Shown piece by piece: positions 5,409 through 16,778 of a stretch of DNA of 29,071 bases. Positions within the stretch are counted from its first letter, which is position 1. Each line of letters opens with the position of its first letter. The stretch covers positions 1 to 29,071 of the IMG/VR virus record IMGVR_UViG_3300043543_000516. The stretch is one strand, 5' to 3'. A program made the position numbers and the translations under genes. Source of the DNA: a virus. The notes beneath the pieces are model-generated. The model did not search any database. It saw nothing but the letters and a program-made list of their open reading frames with translations, and was not told the origin of the DNA.

Positions 5409-6185
5409 TCATCGCCTGGTGGTATCTGGCGCAGTCCAACGCCGCGTCATGATTACTTCCTCCGCCACCACGGAGGCACCGTACATAACCGAGAGCCGTA
5501 GCGCCGACAGTGACAGCTCAGCGACGACTTCGCTATTGCTGGGGCTGCCGCGCTCTATGGCGCGCAGCGCGCCCGCAAGATACGCCGGATTGATGGAGCA
5601 CGCGGCTTCCGCGTCGCCCTCCATAGCGCCGGCGACGTGCGCTACAATTTCCAGGTTGGCCTCCTTGTCCTCGGCCGCAATATTCACGTCGGCCCCGCGG
5701 ATCCCGATCATGATCGAGTCGAAGCCCGCGCGCTCAAAGGCACTCACGGCGCGCAGGAGTGGCGCGACACTGGTCACGCGCCCGAGGCGGACGGCGCCCC
5801 GCATCGCCTCCCGTGCGGCTCGCCATACGTCGGGATATGAGATGCCGCCGGCGATGGGCAGGGACAGCTCGCCGTTGCGCGCCATGCGATAGTCGTCTAC
5901 GTCAGCGACGGTGACAGGCCCGCAGAATGCTGGCCCCTCTGTCGCAGGGTGGAATACCCATCTGGACGCCCGATAGCCATCGGTCGCTGTGACATATCCA
6001 CTAGTGCGGGCCTTATCGACATCGACGTGGTAGGCATAGAGCCACCACCGCGCCACCCGCTGGACCGGTCCCGGCAGCGCGTGCTTGACGCGGTCTACGG
6101 CCGCTAGGAACTCCCGCGCATCATTGCCGGCCAAGGTCAATCGCGGAACGTAGCAAGTCGCCGCACCGGCGTCATTGTTGCCCAT
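5409..6185 (-). CDS. DnaN-like sliding clamp lacking the first domain
   Basis: The 258 residues correspond to domains II and III of the bacterial beta clamp. VPRLTLAGNDAREFLAAVDR (13-32) starts domain II, ATDGYRAS (67-74) equals the clamp signature ATDGHRLA, and GGISYPDVWR (113-122) equals the FPDY-RR segment that links to domain III. Domain III ends with SINPAYLAGAL (197-207) and VIMTRRW (244-250), matching the FNxxYLLDAL and VIMPMR motifs. The usual length is about 366 residues, so domain I is missing. A clamp tethers polymerase to DNA; a two-domain subunit would need three copies to make a six-domain ring. The start at 6185 has AAGGAGAG upstream. The gene is alone and leftward, with its own promoter-like site. 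Confidence 0.78.
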   Translation of the reverse strand: MGNNDAGAATCYVPRLTLAGNDAREFLAAVDRVKHALPGPVQRVARWWLYAYHVDVDKARTSGYVTATDGYRASRWVFHPATEGPAFCGPVTVADVDDYRMARNGELSLPIAGGISYPDVWRAAREAMRGAVRLGRVTSVAPLLRAVSAFERAGFDSIMIGIRGADVNIAAEDKEANLEIVAHVAGAMEGDAEAACSINPAYLAGALRAIERGSPSNSEVVAELSLSALRLSVMYGASVVAEEVIMTRRWTAPDTTRR

Positions 6186-6229
6186 GTTTTCTCTCCTTTT
6201 GTCCGGCCGGGGATCGGCCGGTTACGCTC

Positions 6230-6258
6230 ACCCTAGATCGGGCCGACCGCAGCGTCAA
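6230..6258 (-). promoter_or_regulatory. Putative promoter of the clamp gene
   Basis: On the minus strand TTGACG (6258-6253) is followed after 17 bases by TAGGGT (6235-6230). The -10 match is weak. Transcription would begin about 40 bases upstream of the clamp ATG. Confidence 0.35.
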
Positions 6259-6270
6259 TCCCCCATTGAC
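6254..6270. repeat. Inverted repeat GTCAATCCCCCATTGAC
   Basis: 6-bp arms around a 5-base centre. The arms contain back-to-back TTGAC boxes, as in the operator at 2911-2929, which hints at shared regulation. Confidence 0.5.
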
Positions 6271-6274
6271 ATCT

Positions 6275-6377
6275 GCGACAGAATGCCGCACCTGTGGCAC
6301 GTGCCGCAGCGCAATATATGCACAGGCTCGAGCCAAATATGTCAGCTATATCAATGACTTAGGCCGCGACAGAATGC
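6275..6377 (+). repeat. 12-bp direct repeat GCGACAGAATGC
   Basis: Identical copies at 6275-6286 and 6366-6377, 91 bp apart, each within ten bases of a TTGACA. Candidate regulator-binding sites. Confidence 0.6.
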
Positions 6378-6444
6378 GGGATTGACACGAATCCGCGAAT
6401 CACATACGCGCCCGCGCGCGCGGCCTCAGTCTCCGCTGAACCCC

Positions 6445-6478
6445 AGATATCCACAGACTCCGCCGAGATATCCACAGA
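6445..6478 (+). repeat. 13-bp direct repeat AGATATCCACAGA with DnaA-box-like cores
   Basis: Copies at 6445-6457 and 6466-6478, exactly 21 bp apart (two helical turns). Each contains ATATCCACA, one base from the DnaA box TTATCCACA. Host DnaA binding is possible but unproven. Confidence 0.55.
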
Positions 6479-6497
6479 TATCAGCGGGTCACAATAT

Positions 6498-6524
6498 CGT
6501 GATCGAGCATCACGGAGTCGTGAT
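6498..6524. repeat. CGTGAT inverted and direct repeats
   Basis: CGTGAT (6498-6503) and ATCACG (6509-6514) form an inverted repeat with a 5-base centre. A further CGTGAT at 6519-6524 lies 21 bp from the first, the same spacing as the adjacent 13-bp repeats. Confidence 0.5.
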
Positions 6525-6974
6525 CAAGCCCCACACGCCAAACGCGAATCCGGCCACGACAACGCAACCACTAGTCGGCCGAAAACGGCGGCAAAATTGC
6601 GGCGACTCGAAGCGAAATTCCTCAACAAAATCAACGGCGCGAGAAATTAAGCCCTCCGCCGCACACGCGCCGCTCACTCCACACACGCCGCCGTGCGTTA
6701 CTCACTCGCCCGCCGATTCCCGTCAGCCTGCGCAAGCCGTTGATCTTGCTCGAGATTTACTCCACGCGTTGGTGAGAGCTGTGCCAGCGGAGCAGCCGCG
6801 TCAATCCGCGCATGACACATATGTATAATGAGTCGGATCATGATACCGCCGTTATAGAGCGGCACTCAGCCAATCACTTGTGTTGGCTAATGTGTTGGTA
6901 CGCGACGGAATCTCATTGAGAAATGCTTTATACATCAATGGCTTGCGCCGTCTTTTGGATTCCCGCTCCGGTCG

Positions 6975-7454
6975 TCAAAACGGAATCTCGTCGTCCAGCT
7001 CGTCGCGCTCACCTCCGGCGGCTGCCGGAGCGGGGCGTCGGGTTGCGCCCTGGACGCCAAAGGCATTCTCGTCGGGCAGTTCGGAGCTGCCGTTGCGGTC
7101 GCCTGCCCGGTCGAGCATGGTGAGCTGCGAGTTGAAATTCTGTAGGACCACTTCGGTGGCGTAGCGCTCGACGTTGTCCTTGTCGGTCCACTTGCGCGTC
7201 TGCAATTGGCCTTCGAGATAAACCTTCGACCCCTTCTTCAAATACTGCTCGGCGATCTTCGCCAGCCCTTCCGAGAAGATCACCACGCGGTGCCATTCGG
7301 TCTTCTCGCGCCGCTCGCCGGTGGCCTTGTCGCGCCAGCTCTCGGTGGTGGCGACCCGCAAGTTCGCGATGACGCGGCCGTCCTGGGTGCGGCGGACTTC
7401 CGGGTCCGCGCCGAGATTGCCAATGAGGATGACCTTGTTGACGCTGCCTGCCAT
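6975..7454 (-). CDS. ssb: Single-stranded DNA-binding protein
   Basis: A 159-residue SSB. The OB fold runs from [17 protein letters not shown] (5-21) through [21 protein letters not shown] (40-60) to [12 protein letters not shown] (78-89) and the NFNSQLTML end near 114. A short flexible linker rich in Pro and Ala follows, then the acidic tip DELDDEIPF (151-159) that recruits partner proteins. Length and layout are those of bacterial SSB, so a host-derived copy is likely. It lies leftward, separated from the clamp gene by the repeat-rich region. It would coat single strands during phage replication and ERF-mediated recombination. Confidence 0.95.
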
Positions 7455-7515
7455 GACGAGAGCCCTACCCTCAAACCGCGCAAGTCCATCGCATCAGCAC
7501 AGCCGCTGACTCTGC

Positions 7516-7542
7516 TTGAGCGCGCAGCAGCCGGAGTATAAT
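7516..7542 (+). promoter_or_regulatory. Putative promoter for a possibly leaderless small gene
   Basis: A perfect TATAAT (7537-7542) with TTGAGC (7516-7521) 15 bases upstream, a short spacer. The start point would fall at about 7549, two or three bases before the ATG at 7552, so the message may be leaderless. Confidence 0.4.
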
Positions 7543-7551
7543 ATCTCCGCC

Positions 7552-7749
7552 ATGCAATATCGCAACGACCACCGCGGCAGCCTGATACTGATCAGGCAAT
7601 ACACCCCCGCCGAGGCGGAGGAAATGGACCGCAGGTTCTGCGCGGCCATGGAGCGGGCGGGATACCGCCCAACCCAGCCGCGGCAAGATGACCATCCCGC
7701 CTATCTCCGCCGCATCTACCCCATCGTTTATCCGCCGGCGCGGTCTTGA
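7552..7749 (+). CDS. Small protein of unknown function
   Basis: A 65-residue protein from the ATG at 7552. An in-frame TTG at 7516 would add 12 residues but falls on the putative -35 box. I do not recognise it. It has a YTPAEAEEMDRRFCAAMERAGYRP segment with a likely amphipathic helix and a Pro/Tyr-rich end (YLRRIYPIVYPP). No Shine-Dalgarno precedes the ATG, while a perfect -10 box lies about ten bases upstream, which fits leaderless translation. It diverges from ssb and precedes the DUF6456-like gene by 59 bases. Confidence 0.5.
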   Translation: MQYRNDHRGSLILIRQYTPAEAEEMDRRFCAAMERAGYRPTQPRQDDHPAYLRRIYPIVYPPARS

Positions 7750-7808
7750 GCATCTCGTTGAGTTTTCACCGGTTTTCCGCTATATGCGGGCGTCGCCTCG
7801 AGGGACGA

Positions 7809-8348
7809 ATGCCGCGCCGACGCCCACCGCCCGGCAAGACCCATGACCTGCGCGCAACCGACGTGCCCGGGCCAATATCCACCGCCGAGGCCGTAATCGT
7901 CGACCCCTACGGCGATCGCGGCGTAGTGCTCATGTCGGTACGCGACGACTATCTCGCCTGGCTGTGGGCGCACGGGCGAATCGAGGAGCACGAATATCGC
8001 GCAGCTCGCCGCTGGCAGCGGGCATTCGAAATCGTGGAGGCCGGGCTGGCCTCCGGATTCGACCCAACGCGCCCGGTGGTGGATTGCGCACGGCCATCCG
8101 AGCCGCTGACCGAAGCCCGCCTGCGCGCCTTCGCGCTGCTCGATGAGGCAAAGCGGTGCCTCGGCATCGAAGGGGATGCGCTGATGGCCGACGTCTGCGG
8201 GCGCGGGCTGGCCCTAATCGAGGCTGCCAAGCGCCGCGGCCTTTACTCCCGAAGGGCTCGCAATTACCTCGGGCGCCGGTTCCGGGAATGCCTCGACAGC
8301 CTCGCCCGCCTGTGGGGCATGCGCCCCCTGCCGGGGAAGGGCCGGTGA
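7809..8348 (+). CDS. DUF6456-like protein with a C-terminal sigma-region-4-like HTH (possible late-gene regulator)
   Basis: A 179-residue protein starting at the ATG at 7809 (GAGGGA ten bases upstream); a TTG at 7746 is in frame but has no ribosome site. Residues 42-78 form helical segments (DDYLAWLWAHGRIEEHEY, then RRWQRAFEI). Residues 125-168 (ALMADVCGRGLALIEAAKRRGL, then RRARNYLGRRFRECLDSLARLWG) look like a sigma-70 region 4-type helix-turn-helix. This matches my memory of DUF6456-type phage proteins. It sits immediately before a promoter-leader-terminator module and the terminase genes, the position of the antiterminator Q in lambdoid phages. The regulatory role is inference from position and the HTH. 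Confidence 0.6.
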   Translation: MPRRRPPPGKTHDLRATDVPGPISTAEAVIVDPYGDRGVVLMSVRDDYLAWLWAHGRIEEHEYRAARRWQRAFEIVEAGLASGFDPTRPVVDCARPSEPLTEARLRAFALLDEAKRCLGIEGDALMADVCGRGLALIEAAKRRGLYSRRARNYLGRRFRECLDSLARLWGMRPLPGKGR

Positions 8349-13245: not shown

Positions 13246-13737
13246 ATGGCCACCGTCTCGCTGAGCTATGCGACCCCGATCACGCTCACGATCACGCTTG
13301 CCTCGCTTGCGAGCGACACCAACCTGATCGCGGGCCGTATCTCAACGGCGGTGGACAATTCGACCAACGGATACGTGGACTTCCTCGTGGGCGGCAAGGT
13401 GACCACCGGCACTACGCCTACCACCGCGCGGCAGATCGAGGTGTGGGCCTACGGCTCCTATGACGGCACCACCTATTCGGCGGGAGCCGGAGGCACCGAC
13501 GCCAATTTCTCGCCCACCGGCGAGAAGAACCTGATGCGCTTATTGCAGATCATCCCGACCGATGCGACCTCCAACCATACCTATGAATGGGGGCCGTGCT
13601 CGATCGCGCAGGCGTTCGGTGGGACTACGCCGTCGAAGTGGGGCATCTACGTGGTGCATAATACCGCCGTTGCACTCAACGCCACCGCCGGCAACCATGA
13701 GGTCAAGGCGACGCCGGTGAAATATGTGAGCGCGTGA
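13246..13737 (+). CDS. Conserved phage structural protein of unknown function
   Basis: A 163-residue beta-rich protein with the core LASDTNLIAGRISTAVDNST, YVDFLVGGKVTTGTTP, RQIEVWAYGSYDG, and the C-terminal FGGTTPSKWGIYVVHNTA and NHEVKATPVKYV. The same arrangement occurs, to my recollection, in a family of unannotated virion-region proteins of alphaproteobacterial phages. No active-site pattern is visible. It is translated shortly after the fibre-like gene, and its stop overlaps the next gene's ATG. Confidence 0.55.
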   Translation: MATVSLSYATPITLTITLASLASDTNLIAGRISTAVDNSTNGYVDFLVGGKVTTGTTPTTARQIEVWAYGSYDGTTYSAGAGGTDANFSPTGEKNLMRLLQIIPTDATSNHTYEWGPCSIAQAFGGTTPSKWGIYVVHNTAVALNATAGNHEVKATPVKYVSA

Positions 13738-14485: not shown

Positions 14486-16090
14486 GTGCCGATTGCCGTC
14501 CGCATTCCGCTGCCGCTCCCTACCGGCGCGACCATCGCGCTCGAAGCGCGTGCGGCGCTTTCTTGCCGGGCGAGCGCGGCCGGAGATTTTACCGCCTCGA
14601 TTCGAGCGCGCACGTCATCCGCGCTCAGCGCGCGTTCGGCTGGCAGTTTCGCTGCCGATCTGTCAGGTCGCATCGGTACTGCCTCCACCGGACGCGGCAT
14701 CATTGATCGGCTGCTCCTCTTCGCGGCGCGCTGCACGGCGGCAAGCGGAGGGCGAGCTGATGGCGGATTTGCCGCCACGCTCATCGGCCGCACGGCGTTC
14801 GCCTTCTCTTGTCGCGCCGCAGGAAGCTTCGCAGCGGAGTTTGCGGCGCGCATAACATCGGCGAATGCGCTGCGTTCTGCCGGTAGCTTCTCCGCCGCAC
14901 TTGTGGGGCGTATCGGCGCCGCGAATGCATTGCGCGGCACTCTCGACCGCATACTTGGGCTTGCGGCGCGTTCTGCGTTTGCGCTTTCCGCCCGGGCCGC
15001 AGGAAATTTTGCTGCCGCTATAACCGGGCGCGCGGCCTCGACCGGAAGCGCGCGCTCTGTCGGCAGCTTTGCGACTTCGCTTGCTGCACGCGCGATTTTG
15101 ACGAATGCGTTGCGTTCGATCGGCAGCTTCACTGCTGCGCTCGCCGGCCACATTGGCGCCGCGAATGCATTGCACGGTGTTCTTGATCGGACACTTGAGT
15201 TTACGGCGCGTTCCGCGCTCGCGCTCAAAGCGCAAGCGGCGAGCGCTTTTGCCGCCGCATTCGCCGCGCGTAGCGCCTCGGCAAGCAGCACCCGCTCTGC
15301 CGGCAGCTTTACCGCCGCGCTCGCGGGCCGCATCTGCGCCGCCTCCGCCAGCTACGGTCCGCTTATCTTTCTACTTGAGCTTGCCGCGCGCGCCAGCTTA
15401 ACCATGGCGGCCGCCGCCCAAGCCGTCTATTCCGCCGCGCTTAGCGCGCGGGCGAGCATAAGCGGCGCGGGGCGCAGCGCGTTCACGCAACTGATTTTGA
15501 TCGCGGCGCGGGCTAATTTGGCATGCCGTTCAATGGCGATCGGAGCGTATGCTGTCGCGCTGCGCGCACGCGCCAGCTATGCTGGCGCTGGTCGCGGCGC
15601 ATCGAACCTTCTTGCCGCCCTTGTCGCGCGAGCTGGCGCAATGAGCGCGGCTGGCGCCGCGGCGGTTTATTCGATCACGTTGACGGCACGTGCAAGCGTG
15701 TCCAGCGCTGCGCGCAGCGCAATCGCTTTGCTGATGATCATGGTCGGGCGGACGACCATGGCCGGCGGCGGTGGCGGAAGCGGCGGCTATTCAGCGGCGC
15801 TTGGCGCGCGCACGGCGTTGACGATGGGCGGTTTTGGCGGCGGCGGCTTTAGGACCGCTCTCTCCGTCGTCACGCGTCTCTTTACCGCGCTGCGCGGTCT
15901 CTTCTCGTCGCTGCGGCCGTTACGGATCGATCCCGATTATTTGGTCGTTCCCGGCGCGCGCACGCGCACCATTGCCGTTTCATATGCGCGCGCAGTAGCG
16001 CCGGGCGCGCGCACGCGTGGCATCGCAGCCCCCGCGCATGCGCGCGCAATAATGCCAGGAGCGCGGACGCGTCATCTGCTCGTCGAATGA
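14486..16090 (+). CDS. Long 20-residue-repeat protein, Ala/Arg-rich (unknown function)
   Basis: A 534-residue protein of low complexity. Residues 8-467 are 23 consecutive units of exactly 20 residues with no insertion or deletion; unit 7 is ALRSAGSFSAALVGRIGAAN. Position 15 is arginine in nearly all units, and a G-x-F/Y core recurs at positions 6-8. Units 4, 8 and 12 are a distinct type (for example ALRGTLDRILGLAARSAFAL), giving an 80-residue superperiod. From unit 15 onward two types alternate, giving 40 residues. The last 67 residues hold three PGARTR copies (489, 506, 524). A GTG at 14486 starts the frame after GCGGAGG. The regular pattern suggests a solenoid or fibrous virion protein, which is inference. 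Confidence 0.8.
   Translation: MPIAVRIPLPLPTGATIALEARAALSCRASAAGDFTASIRARTSSALSARSAGSFAADLSGRIGTASTGRGIIDRLLLFAARCTAASGGRADGGFAATLIGRTAFAFSCRAAGSFAAEFAARITSANALRSAGSFSAALVGRIGAANALRGTLDRILGLAARSAFALSARAAGNFAAAITGRAASTGSARSVGSFATSLAARAILTNALRSIGSFTAALAGHIGAANALHGVLDRTLEFTARSALALKAQAASAFAAAFAARSASASSTRSAGSFTAALAGRICAASASYGPLIFLLELAARASLTMAAAAQAVYSAALSARASISGAGRSAFTQLILIAARANLACRSMAIGAYAVALRARASYAGAGRGASNLLAALVARAGAMSAAGAAAVYSITLTARASVSSAARSAIALLMIMVGRTTMAGGGGGSGGYSAALGARTALTMGGFGGGGFRTALSVVTRLFTALRGLFSSLRPLRIDPDYLVVPGARTRTIAVSYARAVAPGARTRGIAAPAHARAIMPGARTRHLLVE
14507..15886 (+). repeat. 23 tandem 60-bp coding units
   Basis: The DNA of the repeat protein is 23 x 60 bp. Copies are diverged overall, but some are close: a 19-base run starting GGCGCCGCGAATGC recurs at 14915 and 15155, 240 bp apart, and the corresponding position near 14675 and 15335 is recognisable. 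The 180-bp final step suggests loss of one 60-bp unit. Confidence 0.8.
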
Positions 16091-16097
16091 TCACGCC

Positions 16098-16424
16098 ATG
16101 TTGCACTTCGATCCCACGACCCCGGACGGGCGCTTGTTGTTGTCGGTTGATTTTTCTAACTTGGCGCCTGTTGGCGCTAATATCGATTCCGTTGTCGTTC
16201 GCATCGAGGTGCACGAATCGTCGCGTGTTGACGACAACAATTCGTCATTGCGACTCGACGGACCTCCGGTCGTAACTGGAAAAATCGTTTCGCAATGGTT
16301 CAAGCACGGCGTCGAGGGCGTCGACTATGTGTTGCACTTCATCCCGACATTTTCCGACGGAACGATCGAACCGGTCAGCGTGAAAATTCCGGTTCGACGC
16401 TACGCGCCGCCGCAACAATCGTGA
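16098..16424 (+). CDS. Small Ig-like tail-adaptor-like protein
   Basis: A 108-residue beta-rich protein. LLLSVDFSNLAP, SVVVRIEVHESSRVDD, PPVVTGKIVSQWFKHGVEGVDYVLHF and DGTIEPVSVKIPVRRY resemble the Ig-like proteins of about 100 residues that phages encode next to fibre genes (BppU-like or fibre-tail adaptor-like). The function is not certain. The ATG at 16098 follows the repeat-protein stop by seven bases. No distinctive catalytic motif is present. Confidence 0.45.
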   Translation: MLHFDPTTPDGRLLLSVDFSNLAPVGANIDSVVVRIEVHESSRVDDNNSSLRLDGPPVVTGKIVSQWFKHGVEGVDYVLHFIPTFSDGTIEPVSVKIPVRRYAPPQQS

Positions 16425-16430
16425 GCAGCC

Positions 16431-16778
16431 GTGACCATCGCCTTCGATGAGATCTTGTTCGCCCCGCTCTATTCCGTGTTCGGCGTCGACGCGCAGATGG
16501 AGATCGGCTCGGCGATCTATGAGCTGCGCGTTATCGATCGCACCGTCGGGGTGGCGATCGAGCGCGTCGATGGCGGTGACGGCGTCATCCAGAGTGTTCG
16601 GCCGGCCGCCGCCGTGCGCGCCGCCGAACTCGCCAATCACGGGATCGCGCCGGAAACTCTGCGCGGCGGTACGCTTACCATTAACGGCCGCGACTGGATC
16701 GTGCATGCGGTGCAAATGCAGCCTACGCATCGCGGCGAGCGCGACGGCGAGGTGCTGATGTTTCTTGAGGCGGCCTGA
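16431..16778 (+). CDS. Putative head-tail joining protein
   Basis: A 115-residue protein starting at the GTG at 16431. It has the layout of small phage head-tail joining (FII-like) proteins: a short N-terminal helix then IYELRVIDRTVG, RPAAAVRAAELANHGI and a C-terminal strand pair ending in TLTINGRDWIVHAVQM. Such proteins cap the portal-connector and receive the tail. Its position before the tail terminator and tube genes supports the call. The sequence resemblance is moderate. Confidence 0.45.
   Translation: MTIAFDEILFAPLYSVFGVDAQMEIGSAIYELRVIDRTVGVAIERVDGGDGVIQSVRPAAAVRAAELANHGIAPETLRGGTLTINGRDWIVHAVQMQPTHRGERDGEVLMFLEAA

Follow-up and report, generated by a model that had tools for sequence, protein, structure and literature searches.

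Fibre I of the Ralstonia podophage GP4, as worked out by Zheng et al. in 2023, is reported to consist of five gp80 dimers, an elongated rope protein that links them, and a 15-fold adaptor. The corresponding PDB entry 8JOU, which bears the title "Fiber I and fiber-tail-adaptor of phage GP4", contains 10 chains of the gp80 homologue and 3 chains of gp77. The rope chain of GP4 was not identified when the PDB was searched with JC1-type profiles. The GP4 group is that of the Bcep22-like phages, and in one of them, Burkholderia phage JC1, the genes follow each other in the order bead, repeat protein, anchor. Gp53 of JC1 belongs to the Gp80 family (1.7e-43) and gp55 to the Gp77 family (4e-19), while gp54, which is encoded between them, is made up of repeats of about 21 residues. 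Mass spectrometry of JC1 virions detected gp53 and gp55, and gp54 is absent from the list of proteins (PMC9144972). Furthermore, Anabaena phage A-1(L) possesses five beaded neck fibres and a 15-fold neck ring (PMC10966104). Trimers of gp81, joined onto gp82/gp80, form its beads, and the available portion of the article describes no repeat string (PMC10966104). The gp80-gp82 fibre of A-1(L) is likened here to the locus under study by its architecture (PMC10966104).

The locus is located on the virus contig IMGVR_UViG_3300043543_000516, whose complete stretch of 29,071 bases is referred to as the window. Here, a protein of 534 residues that is largely composed of 20-residue repeats is encoded between the genes of a gp80-like and a gp77-like protein. 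A list of the relevant features is given in Table 1. With a probability of roughly 0.6, we interpret the 534-residue protein as the string ("rope") of a chain-like neck fibre, on which beads would dock and which would be anchored on the gp77-like adaptor. The same type of gene is found beside bead and anchor genes in many phages, and the structure would thus be one that has already been seen in one solved phage.

Table 1. Features of the repeat gene and its surroundings in the window.
Feature	Position	Strand	Remarks
gp80-like bead protein, 215 aa	12583..13230	+	PF23140 Gp80 E 1.2e-32; PHROG 240 E 2.5e-21
163-aa protein	13246..13737	+	retained alongside the cassette in L003-L005
LamG/ConA-like lectin protein, 241 aa	13734..14459	+	PF13385 E 1.5e-6
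Repeat protein (putative rope/string)	14486..16090	+	534 aa, GTG start at 14486
Repeat units 1-14	14507..15346	+	80-residue superperiod; units also present in L003-L005
Repeat units 15-23	15347..15886	+	40-residue alternation (weak); same register as units 1-14; no close relative detected
Tail of 9-residue R-x-hydrophobic repeats	15965..16087	+	candidate anchor segment
gp77-like fibre-tail adaptor (anchor), 108 aa	16098..16424	+	PF23148 and fold match
Lambda-FII-like head-tail attachment protein	16431..16778	+	PF05354 E 1.4e-5; start of the siphophage-type half

The protein contains 23 repeats of 20 residues

A sequence-only reading of the window had divided the protein into 23 consecutive blocks of 20 residues, which are free of indels and span residues 8-467 (nt 14507-15886). 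These coordinates proved exact, and the block counts close on 534 amino acids, leaving a tail of 67 residues. In a self-alignment, identity was high at multiples of 20 residues (lag 20, z 9.7; lag 40, z 9.5; lag 60, z 11.5) and strongest at lag 80 (0.41, z 17.0). In shuffled sequence, the best value among 130 lags seldom exceeded 4.5, and the only off-register signal of the protein was a minor one at lag 8 (z 3.5). Position 15 of the unit is, as had been noticed, nearly always an Arg (21 of the 23 units, plus a His in one), and units 4, 8 and 12 form a distinct [IL]-D-R-x-L type. The consensus fits units 1 and 23 poorly. Ala, Gly, Ser and Thr together make up 59% of the repeats. The 20-residue repeats of this reading frame are real. 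Searched directly with the 534-residue sequence, neither viral contigs nor phage records nor the PDB yielded a match, except for three contigs, L003, L004 and L005.

The repeats had further been described as a layout with two tiers and without a known family. The first tier, a superperiod of 80 residues in the first part of the protein, was confirmed by permuting the order of the units (p=1e-4 for units 2-14). The second tier, a superperiod of 40 residues in units 15-22, is marginal with p=0.066 (lag 80 in this part: p=0.03), and this half of the claim is therefore weak. Units of the LDR type are numbers 4, 8 and 11 in L003 and numbers 8 and 11 in L004 and L005; due to these shifted positions, the 80-residue spacing is not conserved among close relatives. 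The supposed lack of a known family did not hold: proteins with repeats of 20-24 residues, some of them with superperiods of 40 or 80 residues, are encoded at the corresponding position in other phages. For example, the repeat protein of DSL-LC06 has a z of 5.8 at lag 40 versus 3.8 at lag 20, and that of mycobacteriophage Faith1 has a z of 5.4 at lag 80 versus 4.7 at lag 20.

Genes for a bead and an anchor flank the repeat gene

The GP4 fibre I family region of the gp80-like protein comprises residues 3-111, and its C-terminal half is extra. The gp77-like protein is weak by sequence. Its match to PF23148 (E 2.9e-5, 25 bits) lies just below the cut-off of 27, a custom HMM gave an E-value of 0.06 and hhalign a probability of 38%; a search of viral contigs with this protein yielded no match. 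When the AlphaFold model of the protein (pLDDT 72) was compared with 350,542 PDB chains, chain 8jou_B, the fibre-tail adaptor of GP4, ranked first (probability 1.00, TM 0.74, E 2.8e-3).

The bead gene is part of the same operon as the repeat gene, the adaptor gene adjoins it, and the repeats lie in the range of 20-24 residues, as in a cassette of the GP4 fibre I type. The likeness to GP4 fibre I and its adaptor (8JOU) lies in the flanking bead and anchor genes. In contrast to the GP4-type arrangement, bead and string are separated in the window by two extra genes, which code for the 163-residue and the LamG protein. Moreover, the window protein has 23 units compared with 10-11 in JC1 and BcepIL02, and the repeat sequences cannot be aligned. 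For the 163-residue protein no Pfam or PHROG family was found. LamG also occurs elsewhere: DSL-LC06 has such a gene near its cassette, and in contig L023 a LamG domain is inserted between the repeats of the repeat protein.

Similar cassettes occur in other phages

A trio of gp80-like, repeat and gp77-like genes was found in JC1, BcepIL02, Itty13, PBC5, Atu_ph08, DSL-LC06 and Faith1, with string units of 20-24 residues. The trio corresponds to gp53-54-55 in JC1, gp55-56-57 in BcepIL02, gp16-15-14 in Itty13 and gp22-24 in Faith1. The repeat proteins of the first three (JC1 gp54, BcepIL02 gp56 and Itty13 gp15), which are labelled hypothetical or virion-associated, resemble the window protein in their place in the cassette, in units of about 20-22 residues and in a C-terminal tail of 9-residue repeats. 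They differ from it in that their unit length varies between 18 and 24 residues, that there is no exact 20-residue register, and that the consensus is another one. In the proteins of JC1 and BcepIL02, hydrophobic cores are spaced about 21 residues apart, with 11 of them in JC1 and 10 in BcepIL02.

Repeats of 20 residues are also present in a 448-residue protein of DSL-LC06, in MEP401 gp59 and in Venkman gp51, which are encoded next to a gp80-like gene, a gp77 gene or both; of the three, Venkman gp51 is located farther from them. In the complete circular genome of DSL-LC06, the genes for gp80, for the repeat protein with its 20-residue units and 40-residue superperiod, and for gp77 follow in succession. 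The consensus of these three repeat proteins is similar to GTxTLxAxGxRIRxG and unlike the profile of the window, and a 9-residue tail was not seen in MEP401 and Venkman. Faith1 gp24, which is annotated as a minor tail protein, adjoins the gp80-like and gp77-like genes and has periods of 20 and 80 residues. Unlike the window protein, it comprises 762 residues with extra N-terminal domains, and the gene order is anchor, bead, string. In Microcystis phage Mae-JY22, a 22-residue repeat protein is encoded two genes ahead of gp77; a bead was not seen. Gordonia phages Vasanti and Phendrix encode 24-residue repeat proteins directly after gp77 (L037 5294-6793 and L039 5268-7337, respectively). In these two proteins, an Arg-rich segment with a 9-residue-like spacing is N-terminal, at the end that faces gp77, and not C-terminal. 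The likely string gene of Agrobacterium phage Atu_ph08 (L043 3369-3923) is unannotated, and gp30 is annotated on the opposite strand over part of it.

No other cassette has repeats that match the consensus of the window (permutation p 0.22-0.996). The repeats of the other cassettes are also mutually unlike, except for those of Venkman, MEP401 and DSL-LC06 and those of PBC5 and Atu_ph08. Since the repeats cannot be aligned between the window and the others, and mostly not among the others, the repeat sequence is unusable as a criterion for membership.

Two siphophage contigs with tail genes akin to those in the right half of the window bear on the location of such chains. In L023 (4361-6832) and L024 (4568-6334), a chain of 23-residue repeats forms a single protein with head-tail attachment domains of the FII-like type (E 4e-11, 6e-11 and 6e-8; two domains in tandem in L024). 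These fusions place such chains at the neck. Both these fusions and the cassette of gp80-like, repeat and gp77-like genes support the role that had been proposed earlier, namely that of a fibre or a head or neck decoration.

The string proteins share a C-terminal tail of 9-residue repeats

The window protein and most string proteins of the cassettes end with copies of the pattern R-x-hydrophobic-x-hydrophobic-x4. In the window, the copies read RTIAVSYA, RAVAPGART, RGIAAPAHA, RAIMPGART and RHLLVE. Their number is thus five, with the first copy one residue short, compared to seven in Faith1 and three to six in the others. A strict motif was defined as three R-x-hydrophobic copies that are 9 residues apart and lie within the last 100 amino acids. 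It matched 6 of 656 non-overlapping ORFs, all six of which are repeat (string) proteins of a cassette; only Itty13, BcepIL02 and Faith1 are independent matches, because the motif had initially been spotted by eye in the proteins of the window, JC1, DSL-LC06 and Mae-JY22 and was derived from these four. With other spacings, the strict motif gave 0-3 matches, and none of these was a string protein. A looser 9-residue motif was not specific and was discarded; it matched 30 ORFs, much like other spacings.

Close relatives differ in the second part of the protein

Contigs L003, L004 and L005 are close relatives of the left half of the record. Their portal proteins are 95-97% identical to that of the window, the DNA is about 84-89% identical, and the gene order (portal, gp80-like, 163-residue protein, LamG, repeat protein) is the same. 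In their repeat proteins, the N-terminus and 13 units are kept, after which a proline linker leads into a terminal coiled coil. The nucleotide identity to the window is 0.60-0.90 for units 1-14 and at most 0.57 for units 15-23. The 9-residue tail is absent in these relatives, a gp77-like gene was not seen on their contigs, and no second contig confirms units 15-23, the tail and gp77 of the window. In L004, genes for an FkbM methyltransferase and a TPR-GT9 glycosyltransferase adjoin the repeat gene (5987-8112). L005 originates from the same metagenome; here, the first of these genes is missing, as is most of the second (6993-7253).

According to one alternative interpretation, the reading frame consists of two repeat genes that were fused near unit 14/15 by recombination or misassembly, such that units 1-14 stem from a podophage repeat protein and the part from unit 15 to residue 534 from another phage. 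This would account for the match of the three relatives to units 1-14 and not to units 15-23, for their continuation after the coiled coil into the methyltransferase and glycosyltransferase genes, and for the break of the superperiod between units 12 and 15. However, units 1-14 and 15-22 follow a common repeat profile and are in register with each other (permutation p=0.0005), and the C-terminal part carries the tail of the cassettes, with gp77 coming next, an arrangement also seen in complete phage genomes. The shared profile and the occurrence of the tail in other phages also weaken the notion that another gene contributed units 15-23 as an unrelated repeat.

The record as a whole is a hybrid. 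Its left half is of the podophage type, with a terminase, an SU10-type portal (1.8e-183) and the fibre cassette, and the relatives of this half run toward head genes of their own. The right half contains a lambda-type siphophage tail; a relative of this half, L027, has a lambda portal, capsid and cement proteins upstream. Homology to L027 begins at position 16437, at the FII gene, and the cassette consequently belongs to the left side. The podophage-type and siphophage-type halves join at 16424-16437 of the window. Neither a capsid nor a scaffold gene was detected in the record, codon usage fails to separate the halves, and genome collections that were scanned with the portal and with an alignment of the tail protein gave no match. 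The record arose either as a chimera during assembly or through genuine recombination. Its hybrid nature and the missing capsid gene would be in line with a fusion inside the repeat gene as well, but the clear foreign junction is located later, at the FII gene. We consider such a fusion doubtful; even if true, it would amount to an exchange of one rope part for another.

A proposed string that takes its order from its partners

The sequence-only reading had envisaged a self-standing stacked solenoid with two or four turns per layer. A self-folding beta-solenoid or fibrous shaft of this kind would agree with the regular units of 20 residues, their lack of indels and the conserved Arg, and the AlphaFold model of the repeat protein (pLDDT 32.6, pTM 0.23), which was based on an alignment of four sequences from the window and its three relatives, neither supports nor refutes it. 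The gene context, however, fits an extended string ordered by beads: the cassette has genes of its own for a bead and an anchor, which argues for a chain that receives its order from its partners. The solenoid is thus left without support and appears improbable. Less probable still is a capsid surface decoration or glycosylated linker that is unrelated to gp80 and whose Ser/Thr-rich repeats are modified by a methyltransferase and a glycosyltransferase: the high content of Ala, Gly, Ser and Thr, the FkbM and GT9-type genes downstream in L004 and the glycosyltransferases upstream in DSL-LC06 would be compatible with it, but the window repeat gene has no such genes beside it, L005 keeps the repeat gene after the loss of most of the modifying genes, and the gp80/gp77 context speaks against it.

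For the preferred interpretation as the string of a chain-like neck fibre, the following mechanism can be envisaged. Each 20-residue unit would serve as the docking site of a single gp80-like bead subunit (product of 12583). Docking of one subunit per unit is proposed because the 10 gp80 chains in 8JOU are close to the 10-11 cores in the repeat proteins of JC1 and BcepIL02. Bead number and fibre length would then depend on how many units the string contains, and superperiods of two or four units may mirror beads that are bound as dimers or as pairs of dimers. The basic C-terminal tail of 9-residue repeats would bind the ring of the gp77-like adaptor (product of 16098). The lectin-like LamG protein encoded at 13734 may be a receptor-binding component and would then possibly form the tip. 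Several observations count against this interpretation: gp54 is missing from the list of JC1 virion proteins, L003-L005 lack the tail and showed no gp77-like gene, two genes separate bead and string in the window, its gp77-like protein is weak by sequence, its repeat consensus has no counterpart in other cassettes, and the GP4 rope chain was not identified in the PDB.

A broader proposal is considerably more tentative. The string proteins might constitute an unnamed family that is widespread in phages of proteobacteria, actinobacteria and cyanobacteria and that is defined by the tail and the gp80/gp77 neighbourhood rather than by the repeats, which change rapidly. Their repeats could serve as a ruler for the beads and the superperiods could reflect bead stoichiometry; the fibre of the window might then carry about 23 bead subunits. 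If so, fibre length and bead number are predicted to track the count of repeat units. Proteins labelled hypothetical or minor tail protein would now be linked to a beaded neck fibre as its string, and the bead, repeat and anchor genes together with the 9-residue tail would provide a simple genome signature for such fibres.

Repeats of another length were observed in the tail-fibre region of Venkman, where gp55 (L008 11072-13264), a protein of 730 residues, contains very strong 17-residue repeats (z 22).
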